Source: Labilithrix luteola (GTDB lineage: Bacteria > Myxococcota_A > Polyangia > Polyangiales > Polyangiaceae). Taken from it: a stretch of DNA of 16,211 nucleotides. The stretch's first letter is position 1; each line of letters starts with the position of its first letter. The translations under genes were made by a program, and so were the position numbers. Positions 1-11,086 of the stretch are shown here, in pieces. The notes under the pieces are model-generated. The model was not told the DNA's origin, made no database searches, and saw only the letters and a list, made by a program, of their open reading frames with translations. The stretch lies in assembly GCA_026225435.1 (NCBI GenBank), contig JAMFST010000873.1, positions 1-16,211 of the forward strand. Reading direction: 5' to 3'.

Positions 1-336
1 AAGACCCCCGACCGGGTCGCGATCGCCTTCCCCGGCGAGCGGCTGACGTACCAGCAGCTGCTGACTGGCTCCCTCGAGGTCGCGCGCGCGCTCCATGCGC
101 TCGGTGTGCGGCCGCGGCTGGACGAGGTGCCGGTCGCCTTCGTGGAGCTTGCCCCCGACGCCACGCTGACGGCGGAGGAGCTGATCGAGTTCTGCAAGGG
201 CAAGATCGCGAGCTTCAAGGTGCCGCGGGCGGTGTTCTTCAAGACCTCCAATGCGTGGCCGATGTCCGCCACCAAGGTCAACAAGGTCGCCTTGCGCAAG
301 GAGGTCGTCGAGCTGATGGCCCTGCGGAAAAACTGA
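1..336 (+). pseudogene. Acyl-CoA synthetase (AMP-binding family) with in-frame loss of the catalytic core; 5' end outside the window
   Basis: Reading frame 1 is open from base 1 to the TGA at 334-336. Its first 36 or so residues resemble the beginning of an AMP-binding acyl-CoA synthetase (PDRVAIAFPGERLTYQQL, then an ALGV segment). From about residue 39 it reads as the extreme C-terminal domain: EVPVAFVEL, the FCKGKIASFKVPR segment, and the MSATKVNK segment that normally carries the catalytic lysine. In the intact family these two parts are separated by several hundred residues holding the P-loop (SGTTGxPKG), YGxTE and GD motifs, and none of these is present. The join lies near bases 103-120 and keeps the frame. 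The product could not form adenylate. The 38-base gap to the next + gene suggests it was first in a CoA-ester catabolic operon. An assembly collapse is the main alternative to a real deletion. Confidence 0.8.
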
Positions 337-374
337 CTCTCCACCATCCCCACTCAAATCGAGGACCAAGAAAC

Positions 375-866
375 ATGACTGTCACTGCCGACAATCTCCT
401 GAAGACCGTCCAGCGTCTCGTCGACGAGTCAGACATCCAGCGCGTGCTGTTCGACTACGCCTTCAATCTCGACGCCAACCGCCCCGAGGACCTGATCAAG
501 AACTTCGTGGAAGACCTCCACGTGTCCTACGGCGGGGAGCACGGCGCCACGGGCAAGGCCGCGTACCTCGAGACGCTGGCCAACGGCAAGACGGGCATCG
601 GCGCGTTCTTCGCCGGTACCAGCCACCACGTGTCCAACGTCGTGATCGACTTCACCGACGAGAACACCGCCGACGTGCGCTCGGTGCTCTACGCGTGGCA
701 CAAGTACACGCGCGAGCGGCCGGACGGCATCGTGATGGGGCAGTACCACGACATCTTCGTGCGCACCGCCGACGGCTGGAAGATCAAGCGCCGCGAGCTG
801 AAACACGCCGGCACGGAGAGCTACCACGCCAAGGCCGCCGCGCTGAACCCGATCCCCCGCCCCTGA
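375..866 (+). CDS. NTF2/SnoaL-like fold protein (SnoaL_4 type)
   Basis: This 163-residue protein has the outline of the SnoaL-like subfamily of the NTF2 cone fold: an N-terminal helix (DIQRVLFDYAFNLD), the strand segment SHHVSNVVIDF near residues 79-89, and the closing strands (YHDIFVRTADGWKIKRREL, residues 123-141). Members act as small dehydratases, isomerases or hydrolases, or as binding proteins, and the substrate cannot be read from sequence. The ATG at 375 was chosen because GAGGA lies nine bases upstream; an in-frame extension back to 255 would overlap the preceding coding sequence and has no family similarity. It sits between an acyl-CoA synthetase remnant and an enoyl-CoA hydratase on the same strand, so it probably belongs to a CoA-linked degradation operon. 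The family call is firm; the function is not. Confidence 0.85.
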   Translation: MTVTADNLLKTVQRLVDESDIQRVLFDYAFNLDANRPEDLIKNFVEDLHVSYGGEHGATGKAAYLETLANGKTGIGAFFAGTSHHVSNVVIDFTDENTADVRSVLYAWHKYTRERPDGIVMGQYHDIFVRTADGWKIKRRELKHAGTESYHAKAAALNPIPRP

Positions 867-889
867 TGTCGCGACGAAAGTGAACCTGC

Positions 890-1666
890 ATGTCTGACGA
901 TCTGATCATCGAAGTGAGCGAGCACGTTGCGCGGCTCACGCTCAATCGCCCGAAGGCGCTCAACTCCATCTCTCACTCGCTCGACGTCGAGCTGGCCGCC
1001 GCCTGGGACCGCATCGACGGCGATCCGGACATCTGGGTAGCGGTGCTCGGCGCCTCCGGTGAGCGCGCCTTCTGCGCCGGCGCCGACATCAGCGGCGGCA
1101 CCGAGGCCCACCCCGATCGCCTCGCGCTCGGCGGTGGTCTCACCGGCATCGGCGGCCCGCTGCGTATCCTGAAGAAGCCGCTCATCGCGGCCGTCCAGGG
1201 CTACGCGCTCGGTGGTGGCTTCGAGCTGGCGATGTGCGCCGACATCATCGTGGCGGCGGACACCACGCAGTTCGGGCTACCCGAGGTCAAGGCCGGCATC
1301 ATCGGCGAGTCGGGCGTCATGCATCGCGCCATCCGCCAGCTGCCGCACCACATCGCGCTGGGGCTGATCCTCACGGGCGACCGCATGCCCGCCGCCGACG
1401 CCTTCAAGTACGGGCTGGTGAACGAGGTCGTCCCCTACGCCGAGCTCACCGCCGCCACCGACCGCTGGGCGAAGAAGCTGACCGCGGCCTCCCCGCTCGC
1501 GCAGCAGGCGGCCAAGCACGCGGTCCTGTCGAAGCTGGGCGGCCCGCTCGATATCGCGCTCGGCACCAAGTACGAGCCGATCGAGGCGTATGCCAATTCC
1601 GAGGACGTGAAGGAGGGCCGCAAGGCGTTCCAGGAGAAGCGCCCGGCGAAGTGGACGGGGCGTTGA
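890..1666 (+). CDS. Enoyl-CoA hydratase/isomerase (crotonase family)
   Basis: The 258-residue length is typical for a stand-alone crotonase. The oxyanion-hole segments are present: FCAGADI at residues 61-67 and GYALGGG at 104-110. Both glutamates corresponding to the two catalytic acids of classical enoyl-CoA hydratase are in place: E112 in GGGFELAMCAD and E132 in FGLPEVKAG. The usual PGAGG stretch after the second glutamate is replaced by GESGV (residues 139-143), as in some carnitinyl-CoA dehydratase-like relatives, so the substrate may be a branched or cyclic acyl-CoA rather than a simple fatty acid. It lies 23 bases after the SnoaL-like gene on the same strand and probably shares its transcript. 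The ATG at 890 is preceded only by a weak GAAAG. It converges on the monooxygenase gene with a 10-base gap and no visible terminator hairpin. Confidence 0.92.
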   Translation: MSDDLIIEVSEHVARLTLNRPKALNSISHSLDVELAAAWDRIDGDPDIWVAVLGASGERAFCAGADISGGTEAHPDRLALGGGLTGIGGPLRILKKPLIAAVQGYALGGGFELAMCADIIVAADTTQFGLPEVKAGIIGESGVMHRAIRQLPHHIALGLILTGDRMPAADAFKYGLVNEVVPYAELTAATDRWAKKLTAASPLAQQAAKHAVLSKLGGPLDIALGTKYEPIEAYANSEDVKEGRKAFQEKRPAKWTGR

Positions 1667-1676
1667 CGTCCTAGCC

Positions 1677-3635
1677 TCACGGCGTCGTCGCCCTTGCGGC
1701 GGCGCCGGCCTTCACCGTGCCGTCCGCGTAGTGGAACGTGTAGTTCTCGAAGTCGGGACGACAGGTGAGCTCCCAGTATTCCAGGTTGAGGAAGGGCATC
1801 ACGAAGATGACTCGCCCCTTGGAGTTCCGGTAGTACGTCCCGAATCCGGGGTGCGTCCACACGGTGCGCGCGTGCACCTCGTCCACCATCTCGTTGTACT
1901 TCTCGGTCACGTCCTCGCGCGCATCGAGCGCGGTGACGTTCATCTCGAGCATCCCGGAGATGAGGTCGCGCAGGTACCGCATCTGCACTTCCATGAAGTA
2001 CATGAAGCTCCCGCTACCGGGGAACGAGTGCGGGCCGCCGAGCATGAAGAAGTTGGGAAAGTGGGGAATCGACACGCCCAGGTAGGCCTTTGGGTCGTCC
2101 TCGTTCCACACCTCGCGCAGGTGCGTGTGGCCGACGCCGTACACGTCGAGCGAGTCGAGGAAGTACGAGGCGTTGAACCCCGTCGCCCAGATGATGACGT
2201 CGACCGGATACTCCTGGCCCGACGCGCTCACCGGCCCCGTCGGCTTCACCGCGGTGACGGCCTCGGTCACCAGGTCCGCGTTGTCGCGCTTGAGCATCGC
2301 GAACCAACCGTTGTCCATCAGGATCCGCTTGCCGAACGGCGGATAGTCCGGCAGCGACTTGGCGAGCAGGTCCGGCCGGCCTTCGAGCTGCGACTCGAGG
2401 TACCGCGTGTAGAAGGCGCGGTGGCCGTCGTTGCGGGCATTCACGGAGCGCTCGGGGTGCTCCCACTCCGGGTCGACACGCAGCGCCTCGATGACCTTGT
2501 CACCGAACTGCCAGAACATCCGGAGCCAGTACCATGCGTGATACAGGCGCACGCTGCTGAACAGCGCCCGCTGCTCCGGGGAGATCTCCTTGCGGAACAG
2601 ATCGAAGGGGGCGATCCACTGCGGCGAGCGCTGGAAGATCGTCAGCTGCGCCACGTCCTTGGCGATGAGCGGCGAGATCTGCTGCGAGCTCGCGCCGGCG
2701 CCGATGACCGCGACCCGCTTCCCCTTCAGGTCCAGACCCTTCGGCCAGCGCGAGGAGTGGAACTGGGTGCCGGCGAAGCTGTCGATGCCGGGGAGATCGG
2801 GGAGCTTCGGCTTGTTGAGCGAGCCCACCGCGCTGATGACGATATTGGCCTTCTGGTCCTCCTCCGCGCCGTCGGCCCGGCGAATGCGCACCGTCCACAG
2901 CTGCGTCGCCTCGTCGAGCGTGGCGCTGAGCACCTCGGTCTCGAACTGCACGTGCTGCTTGATGCCCAGCTCGTTGACCGCGTCGGTGAAGTACTCGTGC
3001 AGCTCGTCGCGCAGCTCGAAGTGGCGGCGCCACTCGCGGTCGAAGAACGAGAACGAGTAGAGGTGGCTCGGAGTGTCGACGCCGGCGCCGGGATACGAGC
3101 TCTCGAACCACACCCCGCCGGCGGCCGTCTGGCGCTCGTAGATGGTGAAGTCGAGCCCCATCTGCCGCAGGTAATACGCGCCGGCGATCCCGGCGATGCC
3201 GAGCCCGATGACGATGACCTTGTAGCCAGCGGGCGCCTTCACCGGCACCGTCTCGCGCGCATCGTCGCCGGTCACCGAGCGCCGCCGGATCTCCTGCGCG
3301 AGCAGGGGGCCGTAGCGGTCATCGATCTTCTCGCCGAGGAAGATGCTCACCAGCTCCACGGTCTTCGCGGGCGTCAGCGTCGGGATGGCCGGCGGCTCGC
3401 CGCGCTGCAGGCGCATGAGCACGGGCACGCTCGCCTCGCGAATCTCCTCCTGGACGTCGGCGGGCAACCCGCCCGAGTCGTGCGCGTTCAAGCCCTTGCC
3501 GCGCGTCGGCCGGTAGCGCCCCTGGAGCCATTTCTCGTCGGCCGTGGCCTGGTAGAGGGTCATCAGCAGCGCCGGGACGTTCGCGTCCCGCATGGCGGCG
3601 CGCACCTCGGCCTCGCTCTTCACGTCTTCGGTCAT
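1677..3635 (-). CDS. Flavin-containing type I Baeyer-Villiger monooxygenase, HAPMO-like
   Basis: This 652-residue FAD- and NADPH-dependent enzyme would insert oxygen next to a ketone carbonyl, giving an ester or lactone. The FAD Rossmann motif GLGIAG is at residues 144-149. The Baeyer-Villiger fingerprint FxGxxxHxxxWP is exact at 287-298 (FAGTQFHSSRWP). The NADPH Rossmann motif GAGASS is at 312-317. About 135 residues precede the FAD domain, including RAAMRDANVPALLMTLYQAT. An extension of this size and character is known from 4-hydroxyacetophenone monooxygenase, so I place it in that branch. The natural ketone is unknown; aryl, cyclic and steroid ketones are all possible. The ATG at 3635 matches where the extension should begin, with GAGGA directly in front, an unusually tight spacing. 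The reading frame stays open far upstream, but that part is antisense to the aminotransferase gene and is not coding. Confidence 0.93.
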   Translation of the reverse strand: MTEDVKSEAEVRAAMRDANVPALLMTLYQATADEKWLQGRYRPTRGKGLNAHDSGGLPADVQEEIREASVPVLMRLQRGEPPAIPTLTPAKTVELVSIFLGEKIDDRYGPLLAQEIRRRSVTGDDARETVPVKAPAGYKVIVIGLGIAGIAGAYYLRQMGLDFTIYERQTAAGGVWFESSYPGAGVDTPSHLYSFSFFDREWRRHFELRDELHEYFTDAVNELGIKQHVQFETEVLSATLDEATQLWTVRIRRADGAEEDQKANIVISAVGSLNKPKLPDLPGIDSFAGTQFHSSRWPKGLDLKGKRVAVIGAGASSQQISPLIAKDVAQLTIFQRSPQWIAPFDLFRKEISPEQRALFSSVRLYHAWYWLRMFWQFGDKVIEALRVDPEWEHPERSVNARNDGHRAFYTRYLESQLEGRPDLLAKSLPDYPPFGKRILMDNGWFAMLKRDNADLVTEAVTAVKPTGPVSASGQEYPVDVIIWATGFNASYFLDSLDVYGVGHTHLREVWNEDDPKAYLGVSIPHFPNFFMLGGPHSFPGSGSFMYFMEVQMRYLRDLISGMLEMNVTALDAREDVTEKYNEMVDEVHARTVWTHPGFGTYYRNSKGRVIFVMPFLNLEYWELTCRPDFENYTFHYADGTVKAGAAARATTP

Positions 3636-3652
3636 TCCTCGGCTCACTGGTC

Positions 3653-3688
3653 GAATCTTGACAGTGCGTGGATATGCTGTCAACTCTC
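3653..3688 (-). promoter_or_regulatory. Candidate promoter with dyad operator for the monooxygenase gene
   Basis: A perfect 7-base inverted repeat, TTGACAG (3658-3664) and CTGTCAA (3677-3683), is separated by 12 bases. On the minus strand the TTGACA of the distal arm is a consensus -35. It is followed 17 bases later by CAAGAT, a weak -10, and the monooxygenase ATG lies shortly downstream. A third half-site-like TTGACTG occurs just beyond, at 3692-3698. The dyad would let a dimeric regulator cover the promoter. The regulator is not identifiable here. Confidence 0.4.
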
Positions 3689-3770
3689 GCGTTGACTGAT
3701 ACGGTGGGGCCGGAGACGCCGTGAACGCCTCCGTGGTGCGCCGCGTCAGCTGATCGACTAAGACGCCGCC

Positions 3771-4976
3771 ATGCCCGCCCTCTCCCCCGCTGCCGCGCGC
3801 ATCCGTCCCGGCGTCTTCTCGGTCCTCGAAGGGCGCGTGGCCGCGTACCTGCGCGGTGGCGGAGACCTGGTTCCGCTGCACATCGGCGACACGTACCTGC
3901 CGCCGCCGGAGAGAGCGAAGCTCACGACCGTGCTCGCCGAGCGCGATCCGGCGAACGAGGCCTCGCTCTACCGCTACGGCCCGACGGCGGGCGAGCCGGC
4001 GCTGAAGGAGGCGCTGGCGGCCGAGGGGCGCGACATCGGGTGGGCCGACTGCGAAGGCGGCAGGCACGTGCACGTCGGCGTCGGCGGCACCCATGCCCTC
4101 TTCTGCGCGGCGCGCGCGCTGCTCGACAACGGCGACGAGGTCGTCACGCTGGCGCCGTACTGGCCGCTCGCTCCCGGCATCTTCGGCGCGTGCGGCGCAA
4201 CGTCGGTCGAGGTGGTCACGCGGCCGCAGGGGGTCCCGGATGCGCGCGGTCTCGCCGCCCGCCTCGCCGCAGCCATCACGCCGCGCACGCGCGCCATCTA
4301 CTTCGTCTCGCCGAACAACCCCGACGGCAGCGTGCTCCGTCGCGACGAGCTCGAAGCGATCGCGGAGATCGCCGAGGCGCGGGACCTCTGGGTCTTCGCC
4401 GACGAGGTGTACCGCGGCTTCGTCTTCGATGGCCGTGAGCACCTCTCGATCGCGAGCTTCCCCGGCTTCACCGCGCGCACCGTGGTCGTCGGCTCGTTCT
4501 CCAAGAGCCACGCTCTCGCCGGCGCACGCGTCGGCTACGTGTTCGCTCCCGAGGACGTGGTCCTGGCGATGCGCCGCATCTCGACCCACAGCGCCTTCAA
4601 CGTGCCGCTCCTCTCCCAGGAGGCCGCGCGCGCGGCGCTGCTGCACGGCAAGACCTGGGGCAAGGAGGCCTGCGCGCGGTACGCCGAGGCGCGCGATGCG
4701 GCGACCAATGCGCTCGACGGATCGGGGATCGAGGCGCGCCCGGCCGAGGGGGCGACGTATCTCTTCTTGAACCTCGCTCCCGTCCTCGCCGGCCGCACCA
4801 CCGAGGACCTCCTCGGCCAGGCCATCGAGCGCGGCGTCTTCCTCACGCCGGGCGCCGCCTTCGGACCGAGCTTCGCCAGCTACGCGCGGCTCTGCTTCAC
4901 GGCCGCGCCGGTGGAGCGGGTGCTGCTCGGGATCGAACGTCTTCGGGCTGCCGCATCCAGCACGGCCGAGGACTGA
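3771..4976 (+). CDS. PLP-dependent aminotransferase, class I/II (aspartate aminotransferase fold)
   Basis: This 401-residue fold type I PLP enzyme has all main landmarks. SPNNPDGS at residues 180-187 holds the asparagine that contacts PLP. FADEVYRG at 209-216 has D211 for the pyridine nitrogen and Y214. SFSKSHALAGARVGY at 242-256 has the Schiff-base lysine K245 and phosphate-binding R253. An arginine in SYARLCF near the C-terminus probably binds the substrate carboxylate. The N-terminal GDTYLPPP replaces the more usual G-xP-F segment. Such enzymes transfer amino groups between amino acids and 2-oxo acids; the donor is not predictable. The ATG at 3771 has an in-frame TAA 12 bases upstream, which fixes it as the earliest start, but no clear ribosome-binding site. 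It is divergent from the monooxygenase and ends stop-to-stop against the acyltransferase gene. Confidence 0.92.
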   Translation: MPALSPAAARIRPGVFSVLEGRVAAYLRGGGDLVPLHIGDTYLPPPERAKLTTVLAERDPANEASLYRYGPTAGEPALKEALAAEGRDIGWADCEGGRHVHVGVGGTHALFCAARALLDNGDEVVTLAPYWPLAPGIFGACGATSVEVVTRPQGVPDARGLAARLAAAITPRTRAIYFVSPNNPDGSVLRRDELEAIAEIAEARDLWVFADEVYRGFVFDGREHLSIASFPGFTARTVVVGSFSKSHALAGARVGYVFAPEDVVLAMRRISTHSAFNVPLLSQEAARAALLHGKTWGKEACARYAEARDAATNALDGSGIEARPAEGATYLFLNLAPVLAGRTTEDLLGQAIERGVFLTPGAAFGPSFASYARLCFTAAPVERVLLGIERLRAAASSTAED

Positions 4977-7175: not shown

Positions 7176-7188
7176 TGACAGACTGTCA
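7176..7188. repeat. Perfect 13-base palindrome TGACAGACTGTCA
   Basis: Two six-base arms flank a single A. The palindrome overlaps the stop codon of the double-CxxC gene and lies about 130 bases upstream of the GspC-like start. It is too short and lacks the T tract for an intrinsic terminator, so an operator is more likely than a hairpin. The half-site TGACAG recurs in the dyad in front of the monooxygenase gene (3658-3683), with different spacing. Confidence 0.4.
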
Positions 7189-8049
7189 GCTCCCCCGGAG
7201 CAAGGCCGCGAGCTCGTCCTCGTCCGCGTAGACCTCGGCGACGTACGGAAGGTCGGTGAGGCGATCGAGAAGGTCGAATCCGGGAGATCCTACGCGCGCC
7301 GTGGCGAGCAAAGCGCTGCGGGCAGCACGTGCGGCGACGGCGGCGCGAGTGCTGGCGGCGGCTTCGGCGATGGCCGCGGCGCGCGCCGCGGGAGCCAGCG
7401 ACGACAGCGGGACCGTGCGGACGGGAGGAGCCGGTGCGTCGTCTCGACGCGCGACCTTCGGCGCACGCACGTCCGACCTGGCCGGGTCACCCGACGCAGC
7501 GGCGGGATCCACGGGCTCACGACAACGAGGATGCTGATGAAGGAACTCGGCGATGTCGCGGACGAGCGCCTTGCGCGAGCTCATCGAGACCAGCTCGAGC
7601 CATTCGTTCTCGAGCAGGGTGTCCACCAGCGCCTCGGCGACCGACTCCTTCGTCTCGGGCTTCTTCGCTTCGGCGACAGGCTCGTCCCGCATCGCTTCTC
7701 CGCAGGCGGGACAGGGCTCGTCCTTCTGCCAGGCGAAGCGCTCGATGCTGCAAGCCGGGCAGTCGTTCGTGGGCTGAAAGCCGTCTTCGAGCGGGCCGAA
7801 GACGTACCAGCCGGTGGCGACCTGCAAGACCTGGAGAGCACGAACGGCCGCCGCGTTCGCCGCGTCCATTTGATCATCGTCGGCCCGGGCGAGCACGCGA
7901 ATCTCCTCCGGAGTGATCTCCACGGCGATCGCATCGTCCGCGGGCTCGAGCAGGCTCGCGAGCGCAGCGGGAGGCGGCGGGATGCGTTCCCGGTACGCGC
8001 GGGACCATTCGTCGCGAGTCGGAGGGCGGAGCGTCGCGAGGAGCTTCAT
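7186..8049 (-). CDS. Unrecognised protein with a double-CxxC zinc-ribbon-like motif
   Basis: I do not recognise this 287-residue protein. Residues 1-95 are a compact N-terminal region (WYVFGPLEDGF at 81-91). This leads directly into CPAC (97-100) and CPACGEAM (113-120), a spacing that suits one structural zinc site. A mixed helical region (about 135-175) is followed by a proline/alanine-rich stretch (about 183-252, many Ala and Arg) that looks disordered or extended. The last 35 residues are ordered again (GFDLLDRLTDLPYVAEVYADEDEL). No signal peptide or membrane span is seen, so it is probably cytoplasmic. The ATG at 8049 has no strong ribosome-binding site; a GTG six codons upstream is the alternative. 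It is divergent from the FHA gene across 107 bases, so the two may share control. Confidence 0.7.
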   Translation of the reverse strand: MKLLATLRPPTRDEWSRAYRERIPPPPAALASLLEPADDAIAVEITPEEIRVLARADDDQMDAANAAAVRALQVLQVATGWYVFGPLEDGFQPTNDCPACSIERFAWQKDEPCPACGEAMRDEPVAEAKKPETKESVAEALVDTLLENEWLELVSMSSRKALVRDIAEFLHQHPRCREPVDPAAASGDPARSDVRAPKVARRDDAPAPPVRTVPLSSLAPAARAAAIAEAAASTRAAVAARAARSALLATARVGSPGFDLLDRLTDLPYVAEVYADEDELAALLRGS

Positions 8050-8156
8050 CGCGGCGCAGGGTAGCACCTCACCATCGGCCCGGCGGCTCGCCTTGCACGA
8101 ATGTACGTCACCCTCGACCCCGCTTCGGTTAAGGTGCCCCCCGAGGAACGAGAACG

Positions 8157-8474
8157 ATGGCGACGACGCGCGTTGATGTGACCCTGAGCCGCAAAGGCGT
8201 GAGCGGAGACGAGCCAACCACGCTCACCTTCGATCAATTTCCCCTGATGATCGGCAGCGCGGAGACCAACGATCTGGTCGTCGTCGACGAGATGATCAGT
8301 CGCCGTCACGCCATCGTCGAAGTCCGCGACGGCGGCCTCTGGCTGGTCGACGTGGGGAGCGTATCGGGCACCATCGTCAACGGACGCCTCGGCTGGGGGA
8401 CGTGGCCAATCGCACCAACACTTGCCATCACGCTGGGCGCGTTCAACCTCGTGTTCACCAGGATCTCGACGTAG
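8157..8474 (+). CDS. Small FHA-domain protein lacking the usual phosphothreonine-binding arginine
   Basis: This 105-residue protein is essentially a single forkhead-associated domain. Residues 32-41 (IGSAETNDLV), 48-54 (SRRHAIV) and 66-76 (VGSVSGTIVNG) align with the three FHA loops. The canonical serine and histidine of the SxxH motif are present (S48, H51), as is the NG asparagine (N75). The arginine that normally follows the first glycine (GR) is replaced by serine (G33-S34). That arginine contacts the phosphate in characterised FHA domains, so phosphothreonine recognition may be weak or lost. The ATG at 8157 follows GAGGA at a spacing of about ten bases. It stands 81 bases upstream of the sigma-synthetase fusion gene on the same strand, which makes a common transcript and a regulatory partnership plausible but unproven. 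Confidence 0.85.
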   Translation: MATTRVDVTLSRKGVSGDEPTTLTFDQFPLMIGSAETNDLVVVDEMISRRHAIVEVRDGGLWLVDVGSVSGTIVNGRLGWGTWPIAPTLAITLGAFNLVFTRIST

Positions 8475-8555
8475 CCGAAGCAACCCGGTCGAGCGCGGCG
8501 AAAGTCGGTCACGCTCCTGTCGCTCGCGTGTCCTTGAATCAGGAGCACCGAGCGA

Positions 8556-9824
8556 ATGCCCGCCAGTCTTGACCTGATCGACGCCGTACGGGCGGCACGC
8601 GAGGGCGATGCGCCGGCGCTGCGCTCGCTGGTCGAAGCGACGCAGGAGATGGCCTACGCCGTCGCGTGGCGGATCCTCGGCAACGAAGCTGACGCGCGCG
8701 ACGTCGTGCAGGAGGCGTATCTCCTCGCCTTTCGCCGCTTGAGCGATCTGGCCGAGCCGCGCGCCTTCGCCGGCTGGTTGCGACGGATCGTGGTCGCCAC
8801 CGCGCTCAACCACCGGCGCCGATCGCGCGCGGTGTGGGTGCCGCTCGACGCCGACGTTCATCCGCCCGTGCTCGACGCCGAGGAGCAAACCTGGAGCGAG
8901 GAACAGCAGCGTCTCGTGGCGCGCGCGCTCCTCACGCTCTCGCGAGACGAGCGCCATCTCGCCGAGAGCTTCTACCACGGAGGAATGACGGCCGACCGCC
9001 TCGCCCAGGCCGCCGGCGTCGACCCCGCGGTGATGCGAAAGCGGCTCCAGCGTGTGCGGGACAAGTTGCGAAAGGAAGTCGAGATGGACGAGAAGAGCGC
9101 CCTGCGCGGCACCGAGATTCCGAAGGACCTTCCGGACAGCATCGCCCTCTTGCTGGCGAGGCCACGCCTGGTCGACCTGCCGGAGAATCCGGTGGGGCTC
9201 ACCCTCGCGGCGCTGCGCGGCGCATTCACCGGCTTCTCCGAGATCGAATTGCCCGAGGAGATCGATCTCGCCGAGGCGGAGCGGCGCCTCGGCGGCGACG
9301 CCGTGTACATCGATCGCGCGAGCTTGCAGCGCATCGCGGGAGAGCGGGTGTTGCGCTACGACCTGTCGCTCCCGCTGCTCATGAGCGTCCGCTGGGAAGG
9401 GACCGGGCTGCGGATGTCGGCAGCGGGCAAGGCGTATCGCCGTGAGCGCGAGAGCGCGACGCACCTGGAGGCGTTTCACCAGCTCGAGGTGTTCGCGATG
9501 GATGACCGGAACAGCATCGACACGTGGGCCTTCTCCGGACGCATCCTCGAGTCGGTCGAACGCGCCTTGCCGCGCTCGGAGCTGCGCGTGACGCCCACCG
9601 ACTATCCCATGTGCGCCCGCGCCTGGAGCCTCGACGTGCGGCACGGCGGAGAGTGGACCGAGCTCCTGGCGTGGGGTGGATACGCCGACTGGGTCGTCCG
9701 CGCCATCGGCGGCGAGCCGGGGCAGACGACGGCGCTCTGCGCGGGCTTCGGGCTCGAGCGCATCGCCGCGCTTCGTTACGGCGTCGACGACTTGCGCAAG
9801 ATGGGCGCCACGCGCGTGCCTTGA
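8556..9824 (+). CDS. ECF-like sigma factor fused to a phenylalanyl-tRNA synthetase alpha-like catalytic domain
   Basis: This 422-residue protein has two parts. Residues 10-90 are sigma region 2 (DARDVVQEAYLLAFRRLSDL at 46-65, then AFAGWLRRIVVATALNHRRR at 70-89). Residues 116-175 are sigma region 4 with a helix-turn-helix (MTADRLAQAAGVDPAVMRKR at 144-163). Residues 211-415 follow the class II core of PheRS alpha. NPVGLTLAALRGAF (211-224) matches the entry helix. AYRRERESATHLEAFHQLE (293-311) is motif 2 and its loop. WTELLAWG (367-374) matches the WLEVLGCG strand. GFGLERIAALRYGVDDLR (397-414) is motif 3 with R402. The tRNA-binding N-terminal coiled coil of PheRS is absent. I infer a transcription factor with a ligand- or ATP-sensing domain rather than a charging enzyme. 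The ATG at 8556 has AGGAG ten bases upstream. The last 49 bases overlap the convergent MFS gene. Confidence 0.85.
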   Translation: MPASLDLIDAVRAAREGDAPALRSLVEATQEMAYAVAWRILGNEADARDVVQEAYLLAFRRLSDLAEPRAFAGWLRRIVVATALNHRRRSRAVWVPLDADVHPPVLDAEEQTWSEEQQRLVARALLTLSRDERHLAESFYHGGMTADRLAQAAGVDPAVMRKRLQRVRDKLRKEVEMDEKSALRGTEIPKDLPDSIALLLARPRLVDLPENPVGLTLAALRGAFTGFSEIELPEEIDLAEAERRLGGDAVYIDRASLQRIAGERVLRYDLSLPLLMSVRWEGTGLRMSAAGKAYRRERESATHLEAFHQLEVFAMDDRNSIDTWAFSGRILESVERALPRSELRVTPTDYPMCARAWSLDVRHGGEWTELLAWGGYADWVVRAIGGEPGQTTALCAGFGLERIAALRYGVDDLRKMGATRVP

Positions 9825-11086
9825 GGCGTCTCGAGCACCTTGAGCGTGAGCACGATGACGATACCGACCACCAGCAGCGCAGCCAGCACGTAGATGGCGG
9901 CGTCCGTCGAGTGGGTCACGTCCTTGACGACGCCGATCATGTAAGGCGCGGTGAAGCCCGAGAGGTTCCCGAACGAGTTGATCAGCGCGATCCCGACCGC
10001 CGCTGCGGCGCCCCCCAGGATCGACGGCGGGATGGACCAGAACACCGCGACGTTGGCCATGATCCCCATCGTGCCGAGCGTCAGGCCGAACATCGACCAG
10101 ACCGGCTGCGCGCGGAAGGTGACGCTGAGGACGAGACCGATCGCGCCCACGATCGCGGCGATGACGGTGTGCCAGCGGCGCTCGCCGGTGCGGTCGGCGC
10201 TGCGGGCGGTGAGGTACATGGCGACGACGCCGAAGAACCAGGGGATGGTGCTGATCAGGCCGACGTCCAGCGGATCGGCGACGCCGAGCGCCTTGATGAG
10301 GCTCGGCAGCCAGAAGCTGATGCCGTAGAGACCGGAGACGAAGCAGAAGTCCGCCAGCGCGAGCAACCAGAGCCACGGCTCGCGCAGCACCCGGAGGTGC
10401 GCCCCTTCCTCGTGCGGAACGCTCTCGGCCGCCAGGTCGCGCGCGATGTGCTCGCGTTCGCTCTCCGTCAGCCAGTGCGCCTGGTCGACGCGATCGTCGA
10501 GCCAGATCCACACGACGACCCCGAGGACGATCGCGGGGAGCCCCTCGATGAGGAAGAGCCACTGCCAGCCCGCCCAGCCGTTGACTCCGTCCATGCCGCG
10601 GAGGATGGCGCCGGACACCGGCCCGCCGAGGATGCCCGAGGCGGGGATGGCCGAGAGGAACAGCGAGGTGGCCCGCCCGCGCCGCGCGTTCGGGTACCAG
10701 TACGTCATGTACAGGATGATACCGGGATAGAACCCGGCCTCTGCGGCGCCGAGGAAGAAGCGGATCGCGTAGAAGGAGGCCGGCGATCGCGTGAACATCA
10801 TCGCGACCGACAGCACCCCCCAGCTGATCATGATGCGCGCGATCCACTTGCGCGCACCGAAGCGGTGCAGCGCCAGGTTGCTCGGCACCTCCAGCAGGAA
10901 GTAGCCGATGAAGAAGACGCCGGCGCCCAGCCCGTAGACCGACTCGCTGAAGCCGAGCGCGCTCTGCATCTGCAGCTTGGCGAAGCCGATGTTGACCCGA
11001 TCGAGATAGGCCGCGAAATAGCAGAGGATGAGCAACGGCATGAGTCGCCAGCCGACCTTGCGGTAAAGACGATCGGAGTCGGTCAT
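9776..11086 (-). CDS. MFS transporter, anion:cation symporter (ACS) family
   Basis: This 436-residue protein has twelve predicted membrane spans in two blocks around a charged central loop (about residues 195-235). The first span ends in CYFAAYLDRVNIGFAKLQM (residues 22-40), the pattern of the ACS family, which carries organic anions such as tartrate, glucarate, phthalate and hydroxyphenylacetate with protons. A loop motif (RFGARKW, 75-81) and FFLGAAEAGFYPGIILYMTYW (110-130) also fit. The probable substrate is a small carboxylate; which one cannot be told. The ATG at 11086 has GAGG three bases upstream on the minus strand. Its 3' end overlaps the sigma-synthetase gene tail-to-tail by 49 bases. 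The reductase gene just upstream on the same strand stops 71 bases before this start, so the two could be co-transcribed. Confidence 0.9.
   Translation of the reverse strand: MTDSDRLYRKVGWRLMPLLILCYFAAYLDRVNIGFAKLQMQSALGFSESVYGLGAGVFFIGYFLLEVPSNLALHRFGARKWIARIMISWGVLSVAMMFTRSPASFYAIRFFLGAAEAGFYPGIILYMTYWYPNARRGRATSLFLSAIPASGILGGPVSGAILRGMDGVNGWAGWQWLFLIEGLPAIVLGVVVWIWLDDRVDQAHWLTESEREHIARDLAAESVPHEEGAHLRVLREPWLWLLALADFCFVSGLYGISFWLPSLIKALGVADPLDVGLISTIPWFFGVVAMYLTARSADRTGERRWHTVIAAIVGAIGLVLSVTFRAQPVWSMFGLTLGTMGIMANVAVFWSIPPSILGGAAAAVGIALINSFGNLSGFTAPYMIGVVKDVTHSTDAAIYVLAALLVVGIVIVLTLKVLETPQGTRVAPILRKSSTP

Follow-up and report, generated by a model that had tools for sequence, protein, structure and literature searches.

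A conserved fusion of an ECF sigma factor to a PheS-like class II synthetase core

The fusion gene and its surroundings

The window analysed here, a stretch of 16,211 nucleotides from Labilithrix luteola (contig JAMFST010000873.1), contains a gene in which an ECF sigma factor is joined to a class II aminoacyl-tRNA-synthetase-like core of the PheS type (Table 1). The original prediction had placed sigma regions 2 and 4 in the N-terminal part, and this was upheld by PF04542, TIGR02937, a fold match and modelled helices; the PheRS-alpha-like core with motifs 1 to 3 that it had aligned by eye was likewise borne out by a PF01409 match, an alignment with PheS, conserved active-site residues and the fold. 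With sigma2 and sigma4 present and neither sigma1.1 nor sigma3 (PF04542, TIGR02937 and fold), the layout is that of an ECF (group IV) factor. PF08281, the family for sigma region 4, is precomputed for some homologues and was not returned by the Pfam scan of the window's fusion. In the extension, Pfam matched PF01409 and no further domain. Both domains are intact, and the architecture is confirmed as real.

Table 1. Features of the fusion gene and its upstream region in the window
Feature	Position	Strand	Details
Predicted autoregulatory ECF promoter	8508..8534	+	-35 GTCACG 8508-8513, 16-base spacer, -10 GTCCT 8530-8534
Shine-Dalgarno-like AGGAG	8541..8545	+	10 bases before ATG; direct reading
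ECF sigma factor-PheS-like fusion gene	8556..9824	+	422 aa
Sigma region 2, residues 25-91	8628..8828	+	PF04542 E 2.2e-11; fold match to sigmaE region 2
Sigma region 4 with helix-turn-helix, residues about 117-175	8904..9080	+	TIGR02937 spanning 21-174; helices in models
Class II aminoacyl-tRNA-synthetase-like core, PheS type, residues 206-419	9171..9812	+	
Class II motif 1, residues 228-237, P233	9237..9266	+	PheS alignment; P233 109/122
Class II motif 2, residues 285-317: R295, F307, Q309, E311	9408..9506	+	each 122/122
Class II motif 3, residues 391-408: R402, pocket residue 395	9726..9779	+	R402 121/122

The neighbours of the gene in the window include an FHA protein and an MFS transporter, neither of which is found beside other fusions. 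The small FHA-domain protein is encoded upstream (8157-8474, plus strand; PF00498, E 9.1e-12), and its gene overlaps a divergent 343-amino-acid ORF (7186-8217, minus strand) that has no Pfam family above the cut-off and is also not beside other fusions. The MFS transporter ORF (9776-11086, minus strand) converges on the fusion gene and shares 49 bases with its 3' end. Further away, a SnoaL_4 protein, an enoyl-CoA hydratase and a flavin monooxygenase (255-4646) perhaps form a catabolic cluster unrelated to the fusion.

Within 10 kb, as judged from rough gene calls, no gene family is common to all fusion loci, and a conserved operon partner was therefore rejected. Pfam scans of 33 neighbours, of which 20 flank other fusions and 13 lie in the window, detected no anti-sigma family. 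Shared neighbours are confined to Acidobacteriota, for example among the near-identical loci L011, L012 and L016, and three genes lying 4-9 kb upstream are common to L011/L016 and L021 at 40-56% identity (rough calls, 10 kb). MacB/FtsX-type ABC permease genes, with 24-38% identity between lineages, are found downstream of the fusion at five Acidobacteriota loci (L011, L012, L013, L016 and L018). This family is abundant in Acidobacteriota, and the promoter motif described below was not found at these genes within the scanned loci; their position may reflect chance, or they may be targets in trans.

Spread and inheritance of the family

Of 7,993 candidates scored in a protein search, 1,116 matched at E<=0.001; 120 of these matches were listed, the window's protein included. 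Both domains are present in 118 of the 120 (P0098 and P0105 are without sigma region 2), and 110 have a length of 400-445 amino acids. Scanning of named genome contigs added 15 loci, namely, a sigma-only locus (L022) and 14 fusion relatives, 3 from Myxococcota and 11 from Acidobacteriota, with 37-65% identity (the match at L021 covers residues 2-246 only). The same architecture is thus found in other genomes, in two phyla. At one locus in an Acidobacteria MAG (L017, 2384-3664), the fusion gene appears as two ORFs, for which a frameshift or an assembly error is possible. Two core matches carry a Steroidobacteraceae name, P0198 and the partial P0233.

Within groups the fusion is rare, occurring in at least 2 of 107, 3 of 250, 2 of 289 and 1 of 377 genomes; these are lower bounds, since few candidates were scored per genome. 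The counts include the centres of the sweeps and known carriers, and the sweep of 377 missed or did not draw the known carrier G085. Among 30 relatives, 20 matched at E 1e-10, and among the matches listed only that of the window's own genome (G000) extended over the full length.

That genome and all eight carrier genomes tested also have, apart from the fusion, a PheS-like gene whose product matches PF01409 far more strongly; in G566 this gene is in two abutting pieces. The carrier genome G568 has a third, weak PF01409 match in a 429-amino-acid frame (L053, contig C144; 21.4 bits). In a tree of 34 fusion cores, 20 PheS sequences and one SrmL, the fusions fall on one side of a branch with a support of 100/100, and a local or recent origin from the PheS of the same genome is ruled out by this tree and the breadth of the family. 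Across 122 fusions, the distances of the sigma parts correlate with those of the cores (r 0.85; 7,381 pairs, which are not independent of one another). In six pairs, of which three are among near-identical genomes, dN/dS was 0.11-0.31 for the sigma part and 0.11-0.19 for the core. Both halves are under purifying selection in these pairs and have long been inherited together. Their occurrence as separate genes, which the original prediction had named as the sign of a local artefact, is in general not what is seen, given the 118 of 120 proteins with both domains, the single clade and the purifying selection, although core-only and sigma-only entries do exist. Many of these are core only; several are on short contigs and some on long ones, so genuinely split versions may exist. 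Fragments of the fusion family (P0121, P0123 and P0124, for example) are publicly named "phenylalanyl-tRNA synthetase alpha," which is likely a misannotation. A misbinned contig was also excluded: the tetranucleotide profile of the window agrees with that of its genome (r 0.88 against the pool, compared with 0.68-0.83 for single contigs against the rest; 8 of 14 stretches were usable and 6 consisted of N).

Active site, pocket and relation to known synthetases

The active site was assessed in 122 aligned fusions, comprising 110 database proteins and 12 locus translations in 35 clusters at 70% identity; 121 are distinct, because L008 is identical to P0041. Correspondence with the synthetase active site was taken from an alignment to solved PheRS. 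The four motif 2 residues are invariant, and R402 is replaced in a single protein. We take R295 and R402 to be the ATP-binding arginines, F307 to be the adenine-stacking phenylalanine and Q309 and E311 to be the amino-group-binding HQxE pair.

The positions that presumably line the phenylalanine pocket are conserved as well, with residues that differ from those of 20 genuine PheS sequences (one misincluded row was removed from this set). The fusions have D269 (121 of 122), Y350 (117), M352 (118), C353 (120), W373 (113) and G395 (114), where PheS has H, F, F/Y, V/T, C/S/A and A, respectively; the F-P-F of PheS with its A294-equivalent alanine thus corresponds to Y-P-M with G, S or C in the fusion. 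At residue 395, glycine is accompanied by serine in 7 proteins and by cysteine in 1, the window's protein. This residue aligns with A294 of E. coli, where an exchange for glycine shifts substrate choice towards p-Cl-Phe, as stated in the available excerpt of PMC5499019. A pocket that differs from that of PheS and yet is conserved suggests that the core has a specific ligand, which is probably not phenylalanine. Some members may not adenylate, because R402 is lost in one of them and position 297, which is D or E in the 20 PheS proteins, is C or G in 29 of the 122 fusions. The protein without R402 (L020/L004, Myxococcota MAG MO_167.B37) has a serine in its place (GLES) and may be a natural variant that binds its ligand but does not adenylate it.

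In fold, motifs 1 to 3 and the HQxE site, the core resembles PheS. However, it scores 69.2 bits against the PheS equivalog TIGR00468, for which the cut-off is 237.45 bits, and the N-terminal arm of PheS is absent because the core directly follows sigma4. The scores against the NCBIfam models for PylRS and SepRS are 15.9 and 12.8 bits, with cut-offs of 178.15 and 380.65 bits, and some members also match the HisRS profile TIGR00442 weakly (L010 at E 2.4e-5 and L020 at 8.8e-6). SrmL, the "PheS-related mystery ligase" (NF051887), similarly has a PheS-like core outside PheRS, and the fusion scores 67.1 bits against it; this is below the cut-off of 300 bits, and SrmL has no sigma domains and falls on the same side of the tree as PheS, where its branch is long. 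Among 116 genomes searched, one had an SrmL above the cut-off (L023, G072:C424; 488.7 bits).

Synthetase-like domains are used elsewhere in regulation. BirA, the biotin ligase/repressor, combines a DNA-binding domain with a class II-like catalytic domain, and its adenylate is the signal; unlike the fusion, it is a helix-turn-helix repressor with biotin as its ligand and not a sigma factor. BirA was absent among the 50 matches listed, which is no argument against a shared fold. HisZ, a paralogue of HisRS, uses the synthetase fold as an amino-acid-responsive regulator without adenylation and acts on an enzyme, transcription not being its target (PMC9437257, in the part available).

The predicted self-promoter and possible roles of the core

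The sequence GTCAC[AG]-N16-GTC[CT]T lies no more than 120 bases upstream of the fusion start at all 15 loci compared (the window and L008-L021, with L011, L012 and L016 being near-identical), and the spacing is always 16. When spacings of 10-21 were compared with a short form of the motif, 16 was matched at 15 of 15 loci, 13 at two, 11 at one and the rest at none, and none of 19,110 random 120-base windows drawn from these loci contained the full form. A looser form had 16 matches over 197,420 bases, 15 at the fusion and one inside the fusion gene of L012, with 2 matches in the reversed control. The window's promoter is located 21 bases ahead of the ATG and is the sole match to the strict pattern in its genome. 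This conserved self-promoter, which the original prediction had overlooked, is the best evidence for a working sigma half and indirect evidence that it would direct RNA polymerase to an ECF promoter. Autoregulation of the fusion is well supported by these sequence patterns: the motif would be recognized by the fusion's own sigma, and the gene is probably switched on by its own product.

Scans of ten carrier genomes found the strict motif 14 times (9 at the fusion and 5 elsewhere) compared with 12 in the reversed control, and the relaxed motif 45 times (8 and 37, respectively) compared with 43; all five zero-mismatch matches of the relaxed form are located at the fusion. The fusion promoter of G570 escaped both forms, and that of G563 escaped the relaxed one. 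Neither form showed an excess over the control beyond the self-promoter in these genomes at this stringency. A wider regulon defined by this motif was therefore ruled against, and targets with other spacings or weaker elements would escape such scans.

Among the closest known arrangements is that of the ECF41 factors (SigJ and Ecf41Bli), ECF sigmas that likewise lack an anti-sigma factor and carry a regulatory extension at the C terminus. The ECF41 promoter, given in the excerpts of PMC3426412 as TGTCACA-n16-CGTC and supported there by a reporter test, is closely matched by the fusion motif, in which the initial T, the final A and the first -10 base vary (GGTCACG...TGTC in the window). The ECF41 extension, however, is of the SnoaL type, whereas that of the fusion is a class II synthetase core in which Pfam detected no SnoaL family. 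No gene for a COE enzyme (carboxymuconolactone decarboxylase/oxidoreductase/epimerase) is directly beside the window's fusion, and no carboxymuconolactone decarboxylase was present among 20 neighbours scanned at other loci; an adjacent COE gene is also missing in >30% of ECF41 factors, according to the same excerpts. Since ECF41 and PheS each have a tested defining feature that the fusion does not share, it is neither of the two. In the available sections of PMC8999054, C-terminal extensions that replace anti-sigma factors are an established theme: ECFs without anti-sigma genes often carry one, in at least 26 groups (SnoaL, TPR, WD40 and cysteine-rich). The words "synthetase" and "tRNA" have no occurrence in the main texts of PMC8999054 and PMC8103513.

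We propose, giving this reading roughly an even chance, that the fusion works as an orphan ECF sigma factor that is autoregulated and that its activity is controlled by the class II synthetase-like C-terminal domain in place of an anti-sigma partner. In a pocket that has diverged from the phenylalanine form, the core would bind ATP together with a specific ligand resembling an amino acid, and it might join the two into an adenylate. The ligand state would alter the packing of the core, likely a class II dimer, against sigma2 and sigma4, and this would free or block the sigma for RNA polymerase. By analogy with ECF factors that carry regulatory extensions, the core would keep the sigma in one state until ATP and the ligand, or the adenylate, are bound, and the active form would transcribe its own gene from the GTCAC-N16-GTC promoter. 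Ligand binding, adenylation, dimerization, gating and recognition of the motif by this sigma are all inferred, as is the reading of amino-acid or ATP state put forward in the original prediction. A gated sensor would be expected to have effector genes, yet no excess of the motif is seen outside the self-promoter, and the possible MacB/FtsX target near five Acidobacteriota fusions is without it.

Because no trans targets are detectable, the core may instead be the effector itself. A synthetase-like enzyme with its own sigma would then sense a non-phenylalanine amino acid or analogue via the adenylate and switch on only its own gene, the core, a working ligase, being the effector and the sigma mainly inducing the gene when substrate or adenylate is present. 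The control-level motif counts, the location of every zero-mismatch match at the fusion and the conserved active-site residues are consistent with such a one-gene regulon, and ECF41 factors are likewise reported with a single target gene or operon in the excerpts of PMC3426412. On the other hand, the scans miss other spacings and weaker elements, the motif 3 arginine is gone in L020, no acceptor is known and the nearby MacB/FtsX genes could be trans targets. We regard this as an unlikely alternative.

Less likely again is a catalytically silent core that acts as a scaffold, for dimerization or for inhibition, much as an internal anti-sigma factor would. Class II cores dimerize, and L020 has lost its motif 3 arginine; the ECF41 extension inhibits by touching the linker, as described in the available part of PMC8999054. 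Against this, the four residues invariant in all 122 proteins and the retained specific pocket argue for a bound ligand. Sensing of uncharged tRNA, for which the synthetase-like domain of GCN2 is a precedent, would fit the synthetase-like fold but is improbable, as the core lacks the N-terminal arm of PheS and no further domain was detected by Pfam. An assembly or gene-call artefact or a decaying fusion, to which the core-only and sigma-only entries and the split L017 gene might point, is hardly credible in view of the uniform lengths, the two phyla, the purifying selection, the conserved promoter motif and the matching composition.

The interpretation given in the original prediction is supported in part. 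That prediction knew of no characterized sigma factor with such a domain, and no precedent or description of the fusion was found by title and abstract among the matches listed in the literature searched, the scope of which did not include the 2021 ECF classification (10.1093/nar/gkaa1229). The fusion is a real, conserved architecture, undescribed in the texts searched, and a variant on the theme of ECF factors with extensions. This pairing of a sigma factor with a synthetase-like core in some soil bacteria is real and old, and it hints at a new way in which bacteria could detect an amino-acid-like molecule. Should the core gate the sigma, translation chemistry would have been recruited as a direct switch of RNA polymerase.
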